Below, piece by piece: positions 4,152 through 21,811 of a stretch of 64,000 nt of DNA; the stretch's first letter is position 1, and each line of letters opens with the position of its first letter. Both the position numbers and the translations under genes were made by a program. Under the pieces are notes generated by a model. That model searched no databases. It saw only the letters and a program-made list of their open reading frames with translations, and was not told the DNA's origin. The stretch comes from a virus: positions 1-64,000 of IMG/VR virus record IMGVR_UViG_3300023435_000659; one strand, given 5' to 3'.

Positions 4152-4519
4152 AACTCACCTCCCGCCGCGTCTGCGGCAGTTTGTCCACGATGGCTTGCAG
4201 CCACTTTAGCATGAAACCATGAGCGAAACTTCACGTCGCAGTGCTCCCAATCGGCTGTTGCCTCGTCACCACCCGCCTCTGCCTCAAAGAAGGATATGAT
4301 GTGGTGCAACCGCTCGATTTCGTCGGCCTGTTTGATAACCATATTGAAAGCCCGACAAAACTCCTCATTGTTGCACCAATGGGTGTACGGCCACTTATGC
4401 GATGCAATCATTTTCTTCTGTCGGACGGCAAAGACTTCGCGGGCCTCACGGGTCGTCTCTAGCGGCTCTCGGCACGATGCCGCGCGCCCTTCGAGCAATA
4501 CTTTTTCTGTTATCTTCAT
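4148..4519 (-). CDS. Hypothetical protein with AADAAGGEL tail
   Basis: This 123-residue protein begins MKITEKVLLEGRAAS and is Trp/His rich in its middle (SHKWPYTHWCNNEEF), with a helical segment KQADEIERLHHII. It ends in TAADAAGGEL, the repeated tail of this cluster. The ATG at 4517-4519 overlaps the upstream TGA and sits 6 bases after GGAGG. I recognise no domain. Confidence 0.6.
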   Translation of the reverse strand: MKITEKVLLEGRAASCREPLETTREAREVFAVRQKKMIASHKWPYTHWCNNEEFCRAFNMVIKQADEIERLHHIISFFEAEAGGDEATADWEHCDVKFRSWFHAKVAASHRGQTAADAAGGEL

Positions 4520-4899
4520 CGCTTCCCTCCCGTCGCGTTTGCGGCCACATGAAATATGTGACTCACGCTAGTCACATAGTCTCCTGTATGGATCGCTTTC
4601 CTTGAGCAATCTACTATGTCCGCCATTGCAGCTTGCAATTCGTGAGCCTGATATAGTTCGCACTGATAATAACTTTCCGGTGCCTCCCAGGCGGAATAGA
4701 CGCTGGCCGGCACGTCTTCCCGGTTGCACTTTCCGACGGCGAAATGAAGCGCTTGCATGGTTTTGTTTTCTGCTTGCAACCGCTCGATCTCACGACGAAG
4801 GCAATGCGGACAATCAGCCGCATGGGCCGTGTACGTTTGCACCCTGTTCGCACCCTTTTCTATGTAGGACACCGTATGATTACATTCGCTGTCACGCAT
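4516..4899 (-). CDS. Hypothetical protein with Cys pair and coiled-coil segment
   Basis: This 127-residue protein begins MRDSECNHTVSYIEKG. It contains HAADCPHCLRREIERLQAE, a possible metal-binding Cys pair leading into a coiled coil. The C-terminus ANATGGKR is a divergent form of the AADAAGGE tail. I start at the ATG 6 bases after GGAGG rather than at the adjacent GTG, whose spacing would be only 3. Function unknown. Confidence 0.6.
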   Translation of the reverse strand: MRDSECNHTVSYIEKGANRVQTYTAHAADCPHCLRREIERLQAENKTMQALHFAVGKCNREDVPASVYSAWEAPESYYQCELYQAHELQAAMADIVDCSRKAIHTGDYVTSVSHIFHVAANATGGKR

Positions 4900-10404: not shown

Positions 10405-13236
10405 ATGCCAATCTGTGACAAAAAGGGTTCGTCTACCCAGAGCATGGGTGATTACGAATACACTCACCATGAAGTTCCAGATGATCCTGAGTTGAATGTC
10501 TTTTGGCGGGCGGAAACATTAAGACTGGCCGCACAGAGTCATTCCAATGCCATTGTGTTTCGGCAGCAGATCATGGATCACTGCCGCAAGGACTTCTGGT
10601 ATTGGGCTAAGGGGTTTTGTTTCGTTCACGAGCCGCGGATCCTTGATGACGATGCCGAGGAGTTTAATACGAAGGTGTCATTCCTGCCATGGCCGCATCA
10701 GATTCCCGTCGTCGACCGCATTCTGAAAGTGCTGGGGAAACGAGACTTGCGGGTGGTCAAATCCCGTGCCCAGGGTGCAAGTTGGATTCTGGTACTCATT
10801 TTCATTTGGTGCTGGCTGTTTAAGCCGGGATTCAAGGGGAATCTGGTATCTAAAGATGAGGTAGCTGTTGACCGCCGGAACGACATGGATTCACTGTTCG
10901 GGAAGGCCGATTGGCTCCTGGAAAAGCTCCCTGTTTGGATGGTTGGCAAAAAGAACAAGCACTGGCGTCGTGGCTACGGTGAACACTACTTGACGCGAAT
11001 GGATGGCGAAACGGCGATCACAGGTTACGCTTGTACCGCGGATGTGGCTTCGGGCGGACGTGCTATGGTGTTCGGGATGGACGAGCACGCCAAGCACCCC
11101 CGTGGCCCTGACAGGGAGGCTTTGGCTGCGACCCAGCCAATCACCCGCTGCCGGCTATTTATCTCGACCCCCAAAGGCCGAAGCGGTGCGTACTACGAGA
11201 TTATCCACGACGACACAATCGAGGAGCCGGTCCTATACCTCTCCTGGAGGGACAACCCGACGCAGAATCGCGGATTGTACCAGATCGTCAAGGGACAACC
11301 CGTGGTAATGGATGAGGAAAAGTACGGCCCATTGCTTTCTGAGTACCAGAACCACGAGCAGTGGACGAAGTTGAAGGAGCGACTGTCCGAACGAGGATAC
11401 GACCTGACTGGCAAAGCCACTCGTTCGCAGTGGTACGACCAGGAATGCCTGCGTCCAGGTGCCAATCCCGTGCTCGTTGCCCAAGAGTACGACATGGTAT
11501 TCGGCGCGGAGGGGGCACAGTATTTTGCGGAAGCGCTCATCAACCGCCTGAAAAATTGCGTTCGCCGGCCGAAGTTAGGCGAATACCACGTCAACTCGGA
11601 ATCGCTCACGGGAAACTGGACGGAGAACCCAGACGGCCGATTCAGGATGTGGTGTGAACTAGACATCCGCAAGTCCCCACCGATGGGTGAGTACGTGGTG
11701 GGATGTGACATTTCTGCCGGGCTGGGTGGATCGGGTGGTAGCAACTCGGCGATCACGGTGTTCAGCCGGCGTACCGGGCAAAAGGTAATGTCGTTCGCCA
11801 CCCCTTCCGTAAAACCATACGAGTTTGCAGAGATAGCTATTGCGATTTGCAAGTGGTTCTGTAACTACAAAAGCGATCCGGCGTTTTTAATCTGGGAAAA
11901 TCAGGGTCCAGGCAAGGAGTTCTGCCAGCGGCTGGAACGCAGTGGGTTTCAGCACTATTACCGCCGGAAGTCTTCCGAAGAGGCTCCGCTGCACTCTCGA
12001 CATAGCAACAAGCCTGGATACTGGATGAACAAGCGAAGCGCTATTCTGGGGCCATATAGGGAGGCTCTTCTAGAGGGCCATTTCGACAACCCGGATCAGG
12101 ATGCTATCGAGGAACTTAGGCAGTACCAAATGGGCCTGGATGGCGAACCGTATCACGTTGCCAGCAAAGACAAGACCGATCCGACTGGAGCCGGTTCGGC
12201 GCACGGCGATCGTTGCTTTGTCAAGGGGACAATGATTTTGACTGATCGGGGAGAAAGACCTATTGAACAATTGATTCCAGGCGATTTGGTTTGGACTCGC
12301 GATGGACTTCGGCCAGTGTTTGCATGTGGAAAAACAGGCGAAGAACAGGTTTTCAACGCGGATTTGTCGAATGGTCGTTCGCTAATTGGGACTGGGAGGC
12401 ATCCTGTATGGACAGAAAATCGGTCATGGATCGACTTTTCATCGCTGACGTCCCGCGATAGACTACTGGCATGGCAACGTCAACATTCAGACGACGAGGT
12501 GCGTTCATGTCAACAGAATCAGTCAGAGGGCGAGTGTACAAGTGCGACCCAAGCACGGAAACCATTGTGTTTAATGGGAGGAAGTACCACCGAAACTCCA
12601 ATGCCAAGCAAAAGCACCGGCGAAGGTATTTCTGGGGCAGGCGAGAATATGGCAACGGCAAGAAGACCGCACTCCATGTCGCTATTTGGGAGTATCATAA
12701 CGGACCTGTTTCAGAAGGTTATTTGGTACATCACAAAGACAATAGCCAGAGTAATAACGACATCTCCAATCTTCAGTGTATCACCTATTCAGAGCACGGA
12801 AAGATTCACGGAAACGGCAAACACCTGGACGACTACCGACACAAAACGCTTTATTGGCATAAGTGCGAATGGTGTGGCATCAATTACCAGACCTTCCGAA
12901 AATTCAGAACACGGTTCTGTAGCCCCGAGTGCGGACAAAAGCATCTATGCGAGAGCCGTAAAGTCTGTCGCAGGGAAGCACGCTGTCTACAATCTAAGCG
13001 TAGCTAATACGCCGGAATACTTCGCACAGGGCGTTCTTGTGCATAATTGCATTGCCGATGGTCTTGCTTGGCACGCTTGCCTGATGTTCGGAGATCAGCA
13101 CGTAGGGAACGTCTGGAGGAATACAGCGAACGTGATGAGCGCTACCGAAGATAACGTGCCGCGCGAATCGTTCGCTTGGCGGCGGGCTCAGTACCTGAAG
13201 ATGCTGAAAAAAAAGAAGCTGGAAACTACTTGGTAA
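10405..13236 (+). CDS. terL: Large terminase subunit interrupted by an intein
   Basis: The 943-codon frame encodes a terminase of about 665 residues after removal of a 278-residue intein. The packaging ATPase shows a deviant Walker A (KSRAQGASW), Walker B (VFGMDEHA) and the coupling motif STPKGRSGAYY. The RNase H-like nuclease shows Asp in VVGCDISAG, Glu in LIWENQG and the third site in SAHGDR. The last site is where the intein starts, and the extein resumes with CIADGLAWH. It powers DNA packaging into the prohead through the portal. The ATG at 10405 is accepted; MGDYEYTHHE at 10444 is an alternative start. Splicing must occur for a complete nuclease site. Confidence 0.93.
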   Translation: MPICDKKGSSTQSMGDYEYTHHEVPDDPELNVFWRAETLRLAAQSHSNAIVFRQQIMDHCRKDFWYWAKGFCFVHEPRILDDDAEEFNTKVSFLPWPHQIPVVDRILKVLGKRDLRVVKSRAQGASWILVLIFIWCWLFKPGFKGNLVSKDEVAVDRRNDMDSLFGKADWLLEKLPVWMVGKKNKHWRRGYGEHYLTRMDGETAITGYACTADVASGGRAMVFGMDEHAKHPRGPDREALAATQPITRCRLFISTPKGRSGAYYEIIHDDTIEEPVLYLSWRDNPTQNRGLYQIVKGQPVVMDEEKYGPLLSEYQNHEQWTKLKERLSERGYDLTGKATRSQWYDQECLRPGANPVLVAQEYDMVFGAEGAQYFAEALINRLKNCVRRPKLGEYHVNSESLTGNWTENPDGRFRMWCELDIRKSPPMGEYVVGCDISAGLGGSGGSNSAITVFSRRTGQKVMSFATPSVKPYEFAEIAIAICKWFCNYKSDPAFLIWENQGPGKEFCQRLERSGFQHYYRRKSSEEAPLHSRHSNKPGYWMNKRSAILGPYREALLEGHFDNPDQDAIEELRQYQMGLDGEPYHVASKDKTDPTGAGSAHGDRCFVKGTMILTDRGERPIEQLIPGDLVWTRDGLRPVFACGKTGEEQVFNADLSNGRSLIGTGRHPVWTENRSWIDFSSLTSRDRLLAWQRQHSDDEVRSCQQNQSEGECTSATQARKPLCLMGGSTTETPMPSKSTGEGISGAGENMATARRPHSMSLFGSIITDLFQKVIWYITKTIARVITTSPIFSVSPIQSTERFTETANTWTTTDTKRFIGISANGVASITRPSENSEHGSVAPSADKSIYARAVKSVAGKHAVYNLSVANTPEYFAQGVLVHNCIADGLAWHACLMFGDQHVGNVWRNTANVMSATEDNVPRESFAWRRAQYLKMLKKKKLETTW
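12214..13047 (+). mobile_element. Intein in the terminase nuclease domain
   Basis: The element begins at Cys604 of the precursor (block A, CFVKGTMILTDRGE), followed by PGDLVWTRDG and block B (TGRHPVWTENRSW). It ends with AVYNLSVANTPEYFAQG and LVHN followed by extein Cys882 (blocks F and G). These are the ends expected of a class 1 self-splicing intein with Cys at both junctions and a C-terminal Asn. The usual LAGLIDADG region is missing. The middle of this frame is Ser/Thr-rich and low in complexity, because the same DNA encodes an HNH protein in another frame. Confidence 0.88.
12507..13007 (+). CDS. HNH homing endonuclease nested out of frame inside the intein
   Basis: This 166-residue protein is read two bases out of phase from the terminase/intein frame. 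It has KKTALHVAIWEYHNGPVSEG, LVHHKDNSQSNNDISNLQ and a following YSEHGKIHG, the typical pattern of phage HNH_3 endonucleases, and a C-terminal zinc finger (CEWCGINY and FCSPEC). The ATG at 12507 has GAGGTG 5 bases upstream, so it seems independently translated. An in-frame ATG at 12471 lacks a signal. It occupies the place where an intein would hold its in-frame homing endonuclease, roughly intein residues 98-265. It would make the intein mobile by cutting intein-free terminase genes. Confidence 0.85.
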   Translation: MSTESVRGRVYKCDPSTETIVFNGRKYHRNSNAKQKHRRRYFWGRREYGNGKKTALHVAIWEYHNGPVSEGYLVHHKDNSQSNNDISNLQCITYSEHGKIHGNGKHLDDYRHKTLYWHKCEWCGINYQTFRKFRTRFCSPECGQKHLCESRKVCRREARCLQSKRS

Positions 13237-14348: not shown

Positions 14349-16247
14349 ATGGTAGCTTCATACCCGGTTTTAGGTGGTGGTGTGCCTGCTGCTGTCGGGA
14401 TGGGGCTTCCTTTGCCAGATCGGATCGGCGAGTCTGCTAAGCAAGCGGATGTCCCTGCCGGCCCCCTCACGCCGGATTTCATCAAGCGTCTCCATGACCA
14501 GATTGCAATGGCCGAAAAGGAGATGGAGACGTTTCGCGAGCAGAACAGGAAACGTCAGTCACTCTATGCCGGTCATGGTTACGGCACAAACGATGAAGAG
14601 GTTGATGCTCCGCTAAACGTCTACAACCTCGCCTTGCGAATCTACCAGCGGCGGCTCATTAGTGGTGACCCCCGTGTCAACATACGGTCACGCTCCCCGA
14701 AGTCGCGACCTGAAGCCTACGAATTGTCCTTGGCTTGCGAACAATTGTTTCGTGAAATCAACCTCAAGGACACCATGAAAGAGGTTGTTCATCAAGGGCT
14801 GGAGAGTGTTGGCATTGTCAAGGTAGCCGTAACGCCTGGCGGCATGAATGAGTCGTTGGGGTTTCTGCATGATGCGTGGCAGCCGTTTTGCGATCCGGTT
14901 TTGCTGGAGAATTTCGCTTTCGATACGAACGCCAAGCGATGGGAAGAGATCGATTGGTGTGGGGACCGATACCGACTTCCGCTCGATGATCTACTGAATA
15001 ACTCGGAGTGGGATCAGAAGATTGTTGCAACACTGGACAAGTCTCAGACTCGTCAGGACGATGACTTGCGACAAAGCCCTGGTGACGAAAGCGTCCAGCG
15101 GATGGGTGTTGAAGATTCAGTGTTCCGCGATGACCTGCGGCAGTACGTTACCGTTTGGGACATCTGGCTTCCGCGGGAGAAGCTATTAATTACCGTCCCC
15201 GACGGTCAGGGGCAACCGCTTCGTGTCAAGAAATGGGAGGGACCGGAAAATGGTCCGTATCATCTGCTGCGGTTCGATCCACTTCCCGGCAACATCATGC
15301 CAGTATCTCCAGGTGGACACCTGGAAAGCCTTGCGAAACTGCTGAACCGAGCGATTCGGAAGCTGGGGAATCAGCTTGACAGGCAGAAGACAAACCCGAC
15401 GATCACGCCTGCCGCTGCCAATGCTGGGGACGACAATACGATTAAGGATTGTCAAGATGGCGATGTCTTGCAACTGATGGATCCGAAGAATACCGGCGAG
15501 ATTCGATCGGGTGGAATTGACCAGCAATCCTACGCATTCACTCAGGGCTTAATCAGTCTGTTCTCCTGGCTAGGTGGCAACCTTGATTCGCTTGGCGGGC
15601 TTGCGAGTAATGCTGGGACTGCCTCGCAACAGGAAATAGAACTGGCGGGTGCGAACAGCCTGATTGATGAGTTGAACGACCGGTTTACTGGATTCTTGCA
15701 GGGGGTTGTGACCGATTTGGCGTGGTACATCTACAAGGATCCCAAGGGGACACGCAGGTTAATCAAACGGGTAGAGGGCACCGATTGGGAAGTGCCGATA
15801 CGCTGGGGGCCCAATCGGAGATCGCGATCGTTCTTTATGTTTGAGTTTGAGATTGATTCGTTCAGCATTCATGCCCGAACGCCGGAACAGCGGTTGCAGA
15901 CAATTATGGAAATTATGCCGCGGATGATGCAAGCGGCGCAGGCCAAGATGATATTTGCCCAGGTCGGGGATGAATTGGATACGGAGGCGCTGTGGCGGTT
16001 GATTACCCGTTACACAGGGCTTACCGAGTTGTCGGAATTGATTCGATCTTCGGGTATACCGATTACGGCTGAACCGGGTGGTGCGGATCGGATGCCCAGT
16101 GCGAACACAGGGATGCCGCACGAGTACATCCGCCGGAATGTTTCGAGCGGCGGTGGCGGCGGGGGGATGGCGCCGGGGCAGCAGGCATTGGCACAGATGA
16201 TGTCGGCGGGCAACAATGGGGGCGGGCAGCAAGGAACACCAGCATGA
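14349..16247 (+). CDS. Portal protein
   Basis: This 632-residue protein lies directly downstream of the terminase block. It has portal-like features: a helical N-terminus (FIKRLHDQIAMAEKEMETFRE), a loop with NVYNLALRIYQRRLISGDPRV, a long beta-rich clip/stem region, YHLLRFDPLPGNIMPVSP, the NRAIRKLGNQLDRQK helix, and a Gly-rich C-terminal tail. Size is close to short-tailed phage portals. It forms the dodecameric ring at one capsid vertex through which DNA is packaged. AGGAA precedes the ATG. The C-terminus overlaps the next gene by 4 bases. Confidence 0.85.
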   Translation: MVASYPVLGGGVPAAVGMGLPLPDRIGESAKQADVPAGPLTPDFIKRLHDQIAMAEKEMETFREQNRKRQSLYAGHGYGTNDEEVDAPLNVYNLALRIYQRRLISGDPRVNIRSRSPKSRPEAYELSLACEQLFREINLKDTMKEVVHQGLESVGIVKVAVTPGGMNESLGFLHDAWQPFCDPVLLENFAFDTNAKRWEEIDWCGDRYRLPLDDLLNNSEWDQKIVATLDKSQTRQDDDLRQSPGDESVQRMGVEDSVFRDDLRQYVTVWDIWLPREKLLITVPDGQGQPLRVKKWEGPENGPYHLLRFDPLPGNIMPVSPGGHLESLAKLLNRAIRKLGNQLDRQKTNPTITPAAANAGDDNTIKDCQDGDVLQLMDPKNTGEIRSGGIDQQSYAFTQGLISLFSWLGGNLDSLGGLASNAGTASQQEIELAGANSLIDELNDRFTGFLQGVVTDLAWYIYKDPKGTRRLIKRVEGTDWEVPIRWGPNRRSRSFFMFEFEIDSFSIHARTPEQRLQTIMEIMPRMMQAAQAKMIFAQVGDELDTEALWRLITRYTGLTELSELIRSSGIPITAEPGGADRMPSANTGMPHEYIRRNVSSGGGGGGMAPGQQALAQMMSAGNNGGGQQGTPA

Positions 16248-16807
16248 ACACAATTACCGATGGAATGCGAGCTACAATGCAGGCGATTACCGCCGGCCTA
16301 AGTTGCGTTCGGGTAAGTTCATCGGCTACTAAGCACTTCCGCCATGACGGCGAAAAAGTCGTGGAAGTTGAGCGGCCTTGTGTAGTTGTTTCGCGGACGA
16401 TGTTTCCGTACAAGTCAGTTGCAATGGCTGTGAATCCAAGCGAAGTGCCGGCAGTGAAGGAGCGATTGAAGAGGGAAGGGCTGTTCACGGAGTTTGATTC
16501 TGAGGGACGACCAGTTATCACAAGCACGAAGCAACAGGATGCCCTAGCCAAAGCGATGGGCATGAAGACTGGTCGGGATGGATATGGGCATACGGACGAG
16601 CACGGCAACTTCCAGAACAGTGGTCGACGTCGATCTGATGAAATAGCAGAGGGACGTGGCCGGGTTCGCAAGGCAATTAAGGAGTTGGAGGCAATGCCCG
16701 AAGAGGTGCCTGCCGGTGTTGTAGCGGGAGTACTTGACGAGTACGATATTGTTCCGGGAGTACTTGACGAGTACAACATTTTCCCAAACGAGGAGAACAC
16801 AGGGTAA
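16244..16807 (+). CDS. Hypothetical protein with duplicated 10-residue unit
   Basis: This 187-residue protein is coupled to the portal by an ATGA overlap. A middle segment (PVITSTKQQDALAKAMGMKTG) and the basic region RRRSDEIAEGRGRVRKAIKE suggest a nucleic-acid- or head-associated protein. The C-terminus carries a tandem duplication, GVLDEYDIVP then GVLDEYNIFP, encoded by a 30-base repeat at 16725-16784. I cannot assign a family; location suggests a head-assembly or packaging accessory. Confidence 0.6.
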   Translation: MNTITDGMRATMQAITAGLSCVRVSSSATKHFRHDGEKVVEVERPCVVVSRTMFPYKSVAMAVNPSEVPAVKERLKREGLFTEFDSEGRPVITSTKQQDALAKAMGMKTGRDGYGHTDEHGNFQNSGRRRSDEIAEGRGRVRKAIKELEAMPEEVPAGVVAGVLDEYDIVPGVLDEYNIFPNEENTG

Positions 16808-16966: not shown

Positions 16967-17094
16967 GGCCCGATGGTGCAATGGCAGCACATCTCCGAAA
17001 CACGTCCCACCCTGGGTCAGGGAGGGCGGTAACCGAGAGGTCCGCCTGTGCGGTTGAGGAGAAGACCGCGGGTTCGATTCCCGCAAGGGCCACC
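16967..17094 (+). tRNA. tRNA-like RNA with a branched insert in the anticodon loop
   Basis: The element begins with an acceptor strand GGCCC, a D-arm GTGC-AATGGCA-GCAC, A26 and the anticodon stem TCTCC. It ends with GGAGA, a 5-base variable loop, the T-arm GCGGG-TTCGATT-CCCGC and GGGCC-ACC. Only 5 of 7 acceptor pairs form, and U33 and a clear anticodon are missing. Where a 7-base loop should be there are 61 bases that fold into a three-way junction: CACG/TGTG closing stem, hairpin 17010-17022 and hairpin 17025-17046 with a GAGA tetraloop. It may be a tRNA with a small intron, a tRNA-derived regulatory RNA or a decayed tRNA. Confidence 0.5.
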
Positions 17095-17122: not shown

Positions 17123-17261
17123 GGAAGGGTCATGCAGCGATGCACGGCCTGAACGGACCAGGCAACCCCCGACTTGATCCCCGGGGGCGTCGGATTCCCG
17201 TTCCAGCGACAGCCTCACGACGGGAGGGTTGTGCGTCGCCGCATGGCCCTTCCGTTTTTTT
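17123..17261 (+). ncRNA. Structured RNA closed by a long stem and followed by seven T
   Basis: Bases 17123-17135 pair with 17241-17253 (13 pairs with one G-U) and, after a one-base mismatch, 17137-17146 pair with 17230-17239 (10 pairs). Inside are three hairpins: 17147-17163 (5-pair stem, 7-base loop), 17166-17187 (6 pairs) and 17197-17224 (5 pairs, extendable). A T7 run follows at 17255-17261, then the ribosome-binding site of the scaffold gene. It looks like an independent non-coding RNA or a large attenuator. No known family is recognised by eye. Confidence 0.6.
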
Positions 17262-17273
17262 GCGAGGCTCACG

Positions 17274-18506
17274 ATGACAACAGAAACAGCAAAACCAACT
17301 TCCCACCAAACGGGCACAACCCCCGACCCGATTGCGTCGAACGCACAGGATTTCAGCGGCAGTGACGATGAAGTCCTCGACAATTTCGCGGAAGTACCTA
17401 GCGATCAGGTTCCGATGGGGTTGGGCGGCGAGGCAGGAAAGCAATCGGAACCAGCAAGTTCTACGCTGGAAGCCGATATTGTAAATGGCACTACGAAACA
17501 ATCCGGCGAGAAACTTCCGTCGGACTATCCCGCAGGCGGGCCCGAACCGGTTCAGGAGCCCGCAGGCGATGAAGGCACGGAGACTACTCCCGAGCCAATT
17601 TCCGAAGAACCGAAAACCCCCGAATTCCCGCCTGCGTTGCTGCAAATGGCGGGATATGCTGATGCCGCAGCGGCACAAAATGCTGGATTTAACAACCCAG
17701 ATGCCTTGCTTGCCGCTGTTCAATGGCGCAGCCAATTGTTGACTCCGGGCACTCAAGTAGTTCAACCTGCTCCGCTTTCTGAGCAAGGGCTGTATCGACG
17801 CCCCGCTCAACCATCAACTCCTTCGGTGTCTCCCGCGCCAGAGCCAGTAGCCAAGCCGGAAGACACTGCCGATTTCAAGGCGTTTCAGTTGCCCACTGAT
17901 AAACGGGACATGCTGGACGATGATTTGGTGGATGTGCTCGATCAAATGAACGAGCATTACCAGCATGAACACGAGCATCACCAGCAGGAACTGAAGTCAC
18001 TTCGCTCTTCTGTTAGCCAGCGGGAAGCTGATATAACCCGCCAGCAAGCACAGGAGGAAAGTGCGAGGTTTGACAAAGTGGTAAATGCTCTCGGCGATGA
18101 GTGGAAGGATGTATTCGGTGAAGGCAGCGGTACGGATTTGGCTCGAATGGGCCAGGACGATCCTGCTGCGATGACTAACTTTAACCACCGGGTGCGGCTA
18201 TTCGAGACTGTCGAAGCAGTGCGGGAAGTCAATGCTAAGCAGCAGTACAAGCCCATGACCGTCGAACAAGAAGTTCAATGGGCCTTGTTGCAGCGATACC
18301 CTGACAAATTTCAACACATGATCTCCGGGAACTCTGATTCCAGCCAAAGCAAGGGAGTCACCGCTAGTCGCCCGACTCAGCGAAAGACACCACCTAAAAA
18401 CCAGAATCAAAAGGTTCTGGCCGACGTGGATGCCATGCTTCAAAAGCGGCATGGCCACTCGTTGGATATGGGCCAGGAGGATGAGTTTGATGGGAGAGAA
18501 ATATAG
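17274..18506 (+). CDS. Putative scaffold protein
   Basis: This 410-residue acidic protein lies immediately before the major capsid gene, the usual place of scaffolds. The first 200 residues are disordered, Pro/Glu/Thr-rich. A predicted coiled coil follows (HYQHEHEHHQQELKSLRSSV), then a helical region ending with Lys-rich KTPPKNQNQKVLADVDAML. These are features of scaffold proteins, which shape the prohead and then leave. There is little sequence conservation in the family, so the call rests on position and composition. The ATG at 17274 has GAGG upstream, directly after the T7 of the RNA before it. Confidence 0.65.
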   Translation: MTTETAKPTSHQTGTTPDPIASNAQDFSGSDDEVLDNFAEVPSDQVPMGLGGEAGKQSEPASSTLEADIVNGTTKQSGEKLPSDYPAGGPEPVQEPAGDEGTETTPEPISEEPKTPEFPPALLQMAGYADAAAAQNAGFNNPDALLAAVQWRSQLLTPGTQVVQPAPLSEQGLYRRPAQPSTPSVSPAPEPVAKPEDTADFKAFQLPTDKRDMLDDDLVDVLDQMNEHYQHEHEHHQQELKSLRSSVSQREADITRQQAQEESARFDKVVNALGDEWKDVFGEGSGTDLARMGQDDPAAMTNFNHRVRLFETVEAVREVNAKQQYKPMTVEQEVQWALLQRYPDKFQHMISGNSDSSQSKGVTASRPTQRKTPPKNQNQKVLADVDAMLQKRHGHSLDMGQEDEFDGREI

Positions 18507-18519
18507 GAGGACATCCTAG

Positions 18520-19569
18520 ATGGCAACCATTCAACCGGCCGATATCCCTGATATTGTGGCCACTACGCGGGTTTCAGAGGGGCGTCTGCGCTTTCAGCAG
18601 ATTGCACAGAATCTGCCCTTCTACGAGGTCTTTTCTCGCTGGTTCAAGCGGGATAAGGTCATGTTTTCCAGCGGGTACAAGATTCAACGAACGCTGATGA
18701 ACAAGTTGAATCGTGCGGCCTCAAAGCATGTTGGGTTTCTACAGCCCGACAAAGTAAACATCATGGACGTCCTGACGACCATGAGTGTCGAGTGGGTTCA
18801 TGCCCAGACCGATTGGGGCATTATCTATCAGACCGATGTTCTGATGAACTCCGGCAAGGACCTGATCCTGAACATCATCAAGCCGCGGCGTGTCGCATCG
18901 CTCTTGGGGCTTGTCGAAGAAATCGAGGAACTGTCCTTCGGGGCCGCTCCCGGCGTAAGCGACAACGTCAATCCGTGGGCATTGAAGTATTGGGTCACAT
19001 ACAATGCGACCGACGGCTTCACGGGTGCCGCTCCGGGCTCCCATACCACGAAGGGTGGTGTGAACACAACGAACGTACCGAACTTCAAGAATTACTCGAT
19101 TACATACACGGATGTGAGCGACAACGATCTGGTGAAAAGCCTGCGAACGATGTTTCGTAAGTGTCGTTTCGTCAGCCCGATTAGTCATCCAGACTACCGG
19201 GGCCAGATTCGCGATCGCTATCGGCTGTACTGCAACGAGGAAACGATCTCCGCGTTCGAGGACATAGTTCGGTCGCACAACGAGAATCTTGGCAAGGACT
19301 TGGCGATGTTTGATGGTGCCGCGTATATCGCTGGCTACCCAATCATCTACATCCCGCAACTCGACGACGATTCGTCGAGCGATCCGGTCTACGTCATAGA
19401 TCACTCGACGTTTTACCCGGTGTGCCTGAAGGGCGATTACCTCCGGGAAACCGGCCCGCTCCAGGGCGAATCCCACAATACGTGGAACTGTTTCACGGAT
19501 TTGACTTACAACTTCCTCAACGTGGACCCGCGGCGCTCCGGCGTAGCGGCCAAGTCTGACCCGTCGTAA
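18520..19569 (+). CDS. Major capsid protein
   Basis: This 349-residue protein has a very strong ribosome-binding site (AGGAGG, 9 bases before ATG), matching high expression. It lies between the putative scaffold and decoration genes. The sequence includes RFQQIAQNLPFYEVFSRWF near the start, long helix/strand blocks, FGAAPGVSDNVNPW and AAYIAGYPIIYIPQLDDDS near the end, in keeping with an HK97-fold capsid subunit of short N-arm type. The family is too diverse to identify closer. It forms the icosahedral shell. Confidence 0.75.
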   Translation: MATIQPADIPDIVATTRVSEGRLRFQQIAQNLPFYEVFSRWFKRDKVMFSSGYKIQRTLMNKLNRAASKHVGFLQPDKVNIMDVLTTMSVEWVHAQTDWGIIYQTDVLMNSGKDLILNIIKPRRVASLLGLVEEIEELSFGAAPGVSDNVNPWALKYWVTYNATDGFTGAAPGSHTTKGGVNTTNVPNFKNYSITYTDVSDNDLVKSLRTMFRKCRFVSPISHPDYRGQIRDRYRLYCNEETISAFEDIVRSHNENLGKDLAMFDGAAYIAGYPIIYIPQLDDDSSSDPVYVIDHSTFYPVCLKGDYLRETGPLQGESHNTWNCFTDLTYNFLNVDPRRSGVAAKSDPS

Positions 19570-20641: not shown

Positions 20642-20790
20642 ATGTCTAACGAAAACGTCATGCGGTTGTTCAATGATGCTGTTACTAACGGCCGAGTTCG
20701 CCCCAGACTGAATGTCATCGTCAAGACAGCCAGCTATACCGTCACATCAGGTGACTTTGGCTCGGTACTTACGACGCGCGGTGCTCAGGC
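20642..20790 (+). repeat. Direct duplication, copy 1 (copy 2 at 21158-21306)
   Basis: The 5' coding segments are nearly identical in DNA, and the upstream leaders (about 20576-20641 and 21092-21157) share blocks such as TGCCAACCGGACCATC and GATGTAAAA. The whole leader-plus-gene unit was duplicated in tandem. Confidence 0.8.
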
Positions 20791-21055
20791 CGCAGTTACG
20801 TTTACGCTGCCGGCAGCCTCGACGCAGAACAAGGGCGAGTGGATGTTGTTCGTCAACGTGGCCAACCAGAACATGATTATTGCCGGTGCCGATGAGGAGC
20901 TAGTTGTGTTCAATGACCTGACAGCCGATAGTATCGCGTTCCAAACCGGCAGCGAAAAAATCGGCGGGGCATTCCTGGCGATCTCGGACGGGACAAGCTG
21001 GACTGTGCAGCCACTTGCAACAGAGACACAAACAGTAACCGTTGCTTCGGCTTAA
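20642..21055 (+). CDS. Small virion surface protein (first paralogue)
   Basis: This 137-residue beta-rich protein begins MSNENVMRLFNDAVTNGRVR. It contains VTFTLPAAS, MIIAGADEELVVFND and AFLAISDGTSW, a pattern seen in small phage decoration or fibre-knob proteins. It is a close paralogue of the next gene; the first 50 codons are almost identical in DNA, and the leader before both genes is duplicated. It lacks the Ser/Pro tail of the second copy. Confidence 0.65.
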   Translation: MSNENVMRLFNDAVTNGRVRPRLNVIVKTASYTVTSGDFGSVLTTRGAQAAVTFTLPAASTQNKGEWMLFVNVANQNMIIAGADEELVVFNDLTADSIAFQTGSEKIGGAFLAISDGTSWTVQPLATETQTVTVASA

Positions 21056-21157: not shown

Positions 21158-21811
21158 ATGTCTTCTGAAAACATCATGCGGTTGTTCAATGATGCTGTTA
21201 CTAACGGCCGAGTTCGCCCCAGACTGAATATCATCGTCAAGACAGCCAGCTATACCGTCACGTCGGGTGACTTTGGCTCGGTACTTACGACGCGCGGTGC
21301 TAGTGGCGAGGTGACGTTTACACTGCCCGCAGCTTCGTCTGTCAACAAAAACAACTGGGCGTTGTTTATCAACATCGCCGACGAGAACATGATCGTGGCC
21401 GGTGCCGATGAGGGGCTGGTTGTGTTCAATGACCTGACAGCCGACAGCATTGGTTTCGCGACGAACAGTGAGAAGATTGCTGGTGGGTTTTTGGCAATTT
21501 CGGATGGAACAAGCTGGCTGGTTCTGCCGATTGCGACGGAAACCCAGACTGTCAATGTTTTCACGGCTGCATCAACTTCACCTTCGGCTTCACCGTCGCC
21601 GTCGAGTTCACCGTCACCTTCGGCTTCGGTGTCAAGTTCGCCGTCGACCTCAGTATCTGGTTCACCTTCAACCTCACCTTCGGCTTCACCGTCACCGTCG
21701 AGTTCACCGTCACCTTCGGATTCACCATCGGCTTCGCCATCACCATCGACCTCACCTTCGGCTTCGCCTTCTGGTTCGCCATCGGATTCACCGTCAAGTT
21801 CGTCGTCGTAA
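21158..21811 (+). CDS. Surface protein with mucin-like Ser/Pro tail (second paralogue)
   Basis: Residues 1-135 match the preceding protein. After ETQTVNVFTAAS comes an 80-residue tail of Ser-Pro-Ser, Ser-Ala-Ser and Ser-Thr-Ser units, ending SPSDSPSSSSS, almost without charge except some Asp. Such tails in other organisms are O-glycosylated and extended. The gene is directly followed by a glycosyltransferase cassette at 21867-27743, so the tail is a plausible acceptor; this is inference. The same tail type recurs in the protein at 39958-41166. The tail coding DNA is repetitive and may vary in length. Confidence 0.7.
   Translation: MSSENIMRLFNDAVTNGRVRPRLNIIVKTASYTVTSGDFGSVLTTRGASGEVTFTLPAASSVNKNNWALFINIADENMIVAGADEGLVVFNDLTADSIGFATNSEKIAGGFLAISDGTSWLVLPIATETQTVNVFTAASTSPSASPSPSSSPSPSASVSSSPSTSVSGSPSTSPSASPSPSSSPSPSDSPSASPSPSTSPSASPSGSPSDSPSSSSS
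21574..21808 (+). repeat. Ser/Pro-coding low-complexity repeat, tract 1
   Basis: Irregular TCxCCxTCx units of 9-18 bases encode SPS/SAS/STS. It is closely related in DNA to tract 2 at 40587-41163, including the end before the stop codon, which suggests exchange between the two loci. Confidence 0.8.

Follow-up and report, generated by a model that had tools for sequence, protein, structure and literature searches.

Phage head assembly relies on exact protein ratios, and to our knowledge hardly any structured RNA leaders have been described for portal, scaffold or capsid genes. The closest described systems are of four kinds. Translational riboswitches and autogenous leaders combine a pseudoknotted core in the 5' leader with an alternative strand over the next ribosome-binding site (RBS), whereas an intrinsic terminator or attenuator consists of a G+C-rich hairpin and a U-run. 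The pRNA of phi29 is a phage RNA with paired ends, a branched core, loop-loop multimerisation and a link to head function. OLE, GOLLD and ROOL are large RNAs (GOLLD often exceeds 800 nt) that form 2- to 14-mers; GOLLD and ROOL are phage-encoded, and the L9.3 loop of OLE switches from GGCC to GAUC or AGCU, which was read as a symmetric intermolecular kissing loop (PMC12286853). The element described here shares traits with each of these, the multimerisation being predicted.

The 64,000-nucleotide stretch analysed (the window) comes from a virus record of 68 kb. A folded RNA some 130 nt long (17123-17253, with T7 at 17255-17261) lies in it directly before the scaffold and capsid genes. The coordinates and the T7 end given in a preliminary description of this DNA were borne out, as were the interior hairpins and the 13-pair closing stem (17123-17135/17241-17253); the second stem, then put at 10 pairs, comprises 14 with G-U pairs included (17137-17150/17226-17239). 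The MFE of the fold was -78.3 kcal/mol in comparison to -58.75 ± 4.53 kcal/mol for 200 dinucleotide shuffles, one of which was equally good (z = -4.3), in agreement with the earlier claim that so long a closing stem would hardly arise by chance. The features of the locus are collected in Table 1.

Table 1 Genes around the RNA element and parts of the element, in window positions
Feature	Position	Strand	Remarks
Terminase large subunit (TerL) with intein	10405-13236		Ordinary large terminase
Portal-like gene	14349-16247		
Small gene	16244-16807		
Strand A	17123-17135	+	5' half of the 13-bp closing stem; partner D, or B locally (fold, RNAalifold)
Strand B	17137-17150	+	5' half of the second stem, partner C; or 3' half of the local A-B hairpin
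P2 5' strand AGGC	17160-17163	+	Pairs with 17212-17215; invariant among type 1
P3 hairpin CCCCCG-ACUUGAUCCC-CGGGGG	17166-17187	+	Covariation in type 1 and type 2
Loop tetramer GAUC, palindromic	17176-17179	+	Preceded by U17175; putative homodimer kissing site
P4 hairpin GUCG...CGAC	17189-17210	+	Nearly invariant within type 1
Pseudoknot S2	P4 loop UCCCGU 17196-17201 x ACGGGA 17220-17225	+	Possible pairing; S2 covaries strongly in type 2
AGCCUC	17211-17216	+	P2 3' strand; alternative partner GAGGCU 17264-17269
ACGGGA, S2 3' strand	17220-17225	+	Overlaps the base of the terminator-like hairpin
Strand C	17226-17239	+	3' half of the second stem; or 5' half of the local C-D hairpin
Strand D	17241-17253	+	3' half of the closing stem; or 3' half of the C-D terminator-like hairpin
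U-run T7	17255-17261	+	Possible intrinsic terminator
RBS region GAGGCU and scaffold-gene ATG (17274-17276)	17264-17276	+	
Putative scaffold, proposed controlled gene	17274-18506	+	In-frame ATG within ORF 17229-18506; directly precedes the capsid gene
Putative major capsid protein	18520-19569	+	Weak phrog_1623 match

Several other features of the region were recorded. An ORF in another frame (12471-13007) overlaps the terminase gene and looks like a homing endonuclease; the TerL of locus L050 likewise carries an intein. The gene preceding the element contains the near-perfect tandem repeat GGGAGTACTTGACGAGTAC (16727-16783). The sequence just upstream of the element (16967-17094) is tRNA-like, being called tRNA-Asn(GTT) by ARAGORN only at the 90% threshold with introns allowed; it has a 54-nt insert in the anticodon loop in which two hairpins are possible by eye, and it was not seen at that place in other loci. 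Positions 20642-21055 and 21158-21811 are duplicated genes whose N-terminal parts are nearly identical (MSNENVMRLFNDAV / MSSENIMRLFNDAV), and the 21158-21811 copy runs on into a Ser-Pro-rich repeat tail.

Relatives of the window's element (type 1) were gathered via the capsid gene from eight IMG/VR loci. Diverged copies were found just upstream of the scaffold gene in L003, L004 (= L014), L006 and L007, and the element of L002 is identical to that of the window. RNAalifold recovered these closing stems from five sequences, and in 10 pairs both partners had changed; examples from the closing stems are GGAAGGG/CCCUUCC, GGGAUGG/CUAUCCC and GGACGG/CCGUCC. These compensatory changes in homologues bear out the preliminary description: the head operon contains a genuine structured RNA. 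P3 also covaries within type 1, and the pseudoknot strands are nearly invariant, so that they carry no covariation. L008, whose capsid protein is 85% identical, has no element at the site; its start region (4790-4830) reads GAGGCC, not GAGGCU. In L005 both type-1 ends are kept and the interior is replaced, a type-2 element sitting between the two ends (4500-4722; L048 759-978). The sequence TTGACA is kept just upstream of four of the five type-1 elements but is not followed by a -10 box and was rejected as a promoter.

Type 2 was first met in L019 (before the portal gene), in the interrupted type-1 element of L005 and in L035 (4420-4560, before the scaffold gene), where the capsid protein is only 36-37% identical. 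Further elements were found with DNA patterns, which gave 33 non-redundant type-2 elements in IMG/VR phages; L047, L051, L052, L055, L058, L063, L066, L070, L071 and several others were dropped as chance hits. Both types have a closing helix, a three-helix core (P2, P3 and P4), a pseudoknot and a 3' hairpin with a U-run. In type 2, P2 (AGGC/GCCU, a 4-bp helix paired at 94.5% across the 33 elements) encloses P3 and P4 (GAUG/CAUC), and a pseudoknot of 6-7 bp joins the P4 loop to the strand just 3' of P2. In the alignment-free test, matched P4 loops and 3' strands gave -7.77 kcal/mol and mismatched ones -4.52 kcal/mol (0/5000; owing to the relatedness of the sequences, neither this nor the other shuffle counts can be read as true probabilities). 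The pseudoknot had 52 doubly changed cells in comparison to 16.3 after shuffling, with a covariation of 0.668 versus 0.141. In the alignment the whole core was 96.2% paired with 11 pairs doubly changed (0/500 shuffles; slid controls 28-55%), and P3 covaried at 5/5 pairs; the covariation of P2 by itself was not significant in the alignment-free test (672/5000). Search patterns account in part for the invariance seen at GAUGCC, at CAUCG and, for some of the elements, at UAGCUA; the pseudoknot strands and the P3 stem were not selected by them.

The two types have in common their architecture, the AGGC/GCCU helix and a palindromic P3 loop at the same register, and from the architecture we infer that the window's type 1 is kin to the larger type 2. 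Covariance model R1 matched the type-2 element of L019 at 32 bits, chiefly via the flanking stems. Models R2 and R3 (R3 being the type-2 core) do not match type 1, R3 giving short local matches only, so common descent is not shown at the sequence level.

Nearly all 33 type-2 elements are placed in head-gene clusters of several lineages (TerL|portal, portal|scaffold, protease|capsid). Group 1 lies between the TerL and portal genes in most loci where these were recognised, with TerL identity down to about 27%, and includes the scaffold sites (L035, L049). The 10 elements of group 2 were found between the head maturation protease and major capsid genes (L057, L059, L099, L102, L126), in a P22-like head cluster near portal and capsid genes before the scaffold/capsid position (L056), before a T7-like head-tail connector (L061), before a portal-like gene (L094) and near phrog_12240 proteins of unknown function (L095 and L104, 2 of the 33). 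The clean absence in L008, the type-2 replacement of the type-1 interior in L005 and the patchy distribution would fit a mobile or selfish palindrome inserted between genes and of no use to the phage. Such an origin is nevertheless very improbable, given that no record searched held more than one copy of each type, that the operon positions recur, nearly all of them in head-gene clusters, that the pseudoknotted core evolves compensatorily and that there is no coding partner.

All 38 elements, those of type 1 among them, carry a self-complementary tetramer in the P3 loop, always in the register one base ahead of the closing CC (38/38). All 27 elements that were not selected by a loop-containing pattern are palindromic here (GAUC in 16, AGCU in 6, CAUG in 4 and CGCG in 1), and the neighbouring registers hold a palindrome in 0-4 of 33. 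Within type 1 the tetramer is GAUC in the window and L004, AGCU in L003, CAUG in L007 and CGCG in L006. Switching among palindromes is what a symmetric kissing loop predicts, and by analogy with OLE the P3 loop probably mediates homodimer formation.

In most group-1 elements one strand of the core, CAUCGCAGCCU, has its complement in the start region of the gene that follows. Its partner is CUGCGAUG, which includes the start AUG, in L053, L060 and L108, AGGCUGCUGAUG in L054 and L103 and AGGCUGCG in L062, while in L049 the variant strand GCUGUCCUG is matched by a changed start-region partner, CAGGACAGC. In group 1 the complementarity exceeded that of 95% of dinucleotide shuffles in 18 of 21 elements; with 120 other gene starts on the contigs concerned as the control, 16 of 21 surpassed 95%. 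The type-1 counterpart, ACAGCCUC, is the complement of GAGGCU in the scaffold gene's Shine-Dalgarno region, and all five elements (5/5) stood out from shuffles; in comparison to other gene starts the signal was weak in the window (15/117 equally good) and strong in L003, L004, L006 and L007 (0-3/117). No element of group 2 had start-region complementarity (0/10), so the mechanism is not universal. Since one strand forms the 3' sides of P4 and P2 as well as the start pairing, the pairings are mutually exclusive, and the MFE of the L060 element is the start-covering state with the AUG sequestered (z = -6.4). Group 1 and type 1, unlike group 2, thus have two exclusive conserved pairings, one of them over the RBS or AUG as expected of a translational leader.

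A small RNA or particle RNA, released by processing or termination, could instead work in trans, serving head assembly or packaging in dimeric or multimeric form, somewhat as the pRNA of phi29 does; were that its sole role, the complementarity to the adjacent start would be hard to explain. The closed ends, the predicted kissing loop with its palindrome and the recurrent location amid TerL, portal and capsid genes would suit such an RNA, but a single palindromic loop leads to dimers, not rings, the TerL is an ordinary one and L008 does without the element; we consider this reading improbable. An Rfam search, proposed in the preliminary description as a check, was run and the element matches no family: the scans (gathering and E-value) gave no credible match, no riboswitch family at the gathering threshold and no pRNA. 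Weak matches to BjrC68, sX12 and Moco are explained by the terminator hairpin and chance, BjrC68 aligning to the terminator part only with 40 nt of the core omitted. The earlier suggestion of a particle RNA or a packaging RNA of the phi29 type is therefore not supported, and the predicted kissing loop leaves room for a trans-acting role. No relative was found in cultured phages by blastn with the type 1, L050, L056 and L102 elements, nor in bacterial genome contigs, where the type-2 pattern had 0 matches and the capsid alignment none; literature searches, mostly without subscription papers, found no description of such an RNA. The element belongs to a real, previously undescribed RNA family located before the head genes of many unrelated phages.

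Strand A resembles C and B resembles D, therefore two states can form, either closed (A-D with B-C) or with local A-B and C-D hairpins, the latter being a 17-bp terminator-like hairpin at 17219-17256. The energies of the closed and local states (kcal/mol) are near equal in L003 (-69.8/-66.8) and L004 (-67.0/-65.4), and the closed state is better in L006 (-73.5/-65.9) and about 14 kcal/mol lower in the window (-77.6/-63.1); the MFE of L007 is the local-hairpin form. Covariation of A x D (0/10000) and of C x D (0/5000) shows that D is contested between two partners. Within type 2, strand A at the 5' side of group 1 is rich in G+C and covaries with D (0/10000), and the bases past the U-run had no convincing covariation with the 5' flank (760/10000). 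In group 2 the 5' strand is A-rich and its partners are the U-run and bases beyond (0/10000), so there the U-run is not simply the RNA end.

The 17219-17256 hairpin has the stable G+C stem and following U-run of an intrinsic terminator. Terminator-like sites across the region occurred in a chance number, the stem at 17219-17256 being by far the longest among those listed, and U-runs occur in most relatives. Together with the contest for D and the overlap of the pseudoknot 3' strand with the hairpin base, this is consistent with a transcription attenuator in which the C-D hairpin and U-run would terminate, A-D or the pseudoknot would antiterminate, and readthrough would be regulated or merely partial. 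We hold this to be possible but rather unlikely: A-D likewise ends right at the U-run, so there is no obvious antiterminator, the group-2 pairing implies transcripts that pass the U-run, and start-region complementarity requires readthrough transcripts. The capsid-expression attenuator of the preliminary description comes close to the probable role, control in cis of the next head gene, but the start-complementary strand points to translation at least as much as to transcription termination.

The explanation that we prefer, with a probability of roughly 0.55, is a new family of structured leaders before phage head genes which would act as a two-fold, cis-acting, riboswitch-like translational switch. 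In the first fold P2, P3, P4 and the loop-to-tail pseudoknot would form, leaving the next gene's start region accessible; in the second, CAUCGCAGCCU (in the window, ACAGCCUC) would pair with the Shine-Dalgarno or AUG region and block ribosomes. Strands A-D contribute either the closing helix or the terminator-like hairpin, and in this way transcription may also be tuned. Two RNA copies probably kiss through their palindromic P3 loops, which would stabilise one fold. As the RNA appears able to knot or to cover the next gene's start, it probably controls the amount of head protein, the switch being probably a dimerising one and the controlled genes portal, scaffold or capsid. Direct support from the sequences covers the conserved structure, the covariation of the type-2 pseudoknot, palindrome switching and start-region complementarity; we infer the ON fold, the action in cis and the trigger, which may be RNA concentration, a head protein, a metabolite or a host factor. 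More tentatively, the leader could be dimer-gated: head-gene transcripts would kiss via P3, lock the pseudoknot and open or close translation, and the phage would sense the concentration of its late mRNA by RNA alone, an extension that we regard as rather unlikely.

The family is compact (33 non-redundant elements and type 1), spans SU10-like, HK97-like, P22-like and T7-like head clusters and could be tested directly as a control device, perhaps as a natural dimer switch made of RNA. A simple terminator, unlike the element, has no long-range closing strand, conserved pseudoknotted core or palindromic loop. From the pRNA of phi29 the element differs in sequence and Rfam assignment, in the ordinary TerL, in its start-region complementarity and in being dispensable (L008). 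Translational riboswitches and autogenous leaders are similar in design, and the element is set apart from them by its position before phage head genes, its palindromic loop and the lack of an Rfam match and a known ligand. In comparison to OLE, GOLLD and ROOL, it is small (core about 60 nt, whole element 100-140 nt) and is located ahead of head genes instead of near tRNA islands, while the P3 tetramer switches as the OLE L9.3 palindrome does; the palindrome-switching evidence for RNA homomers is thereby extended from giant RNAs to a small one.
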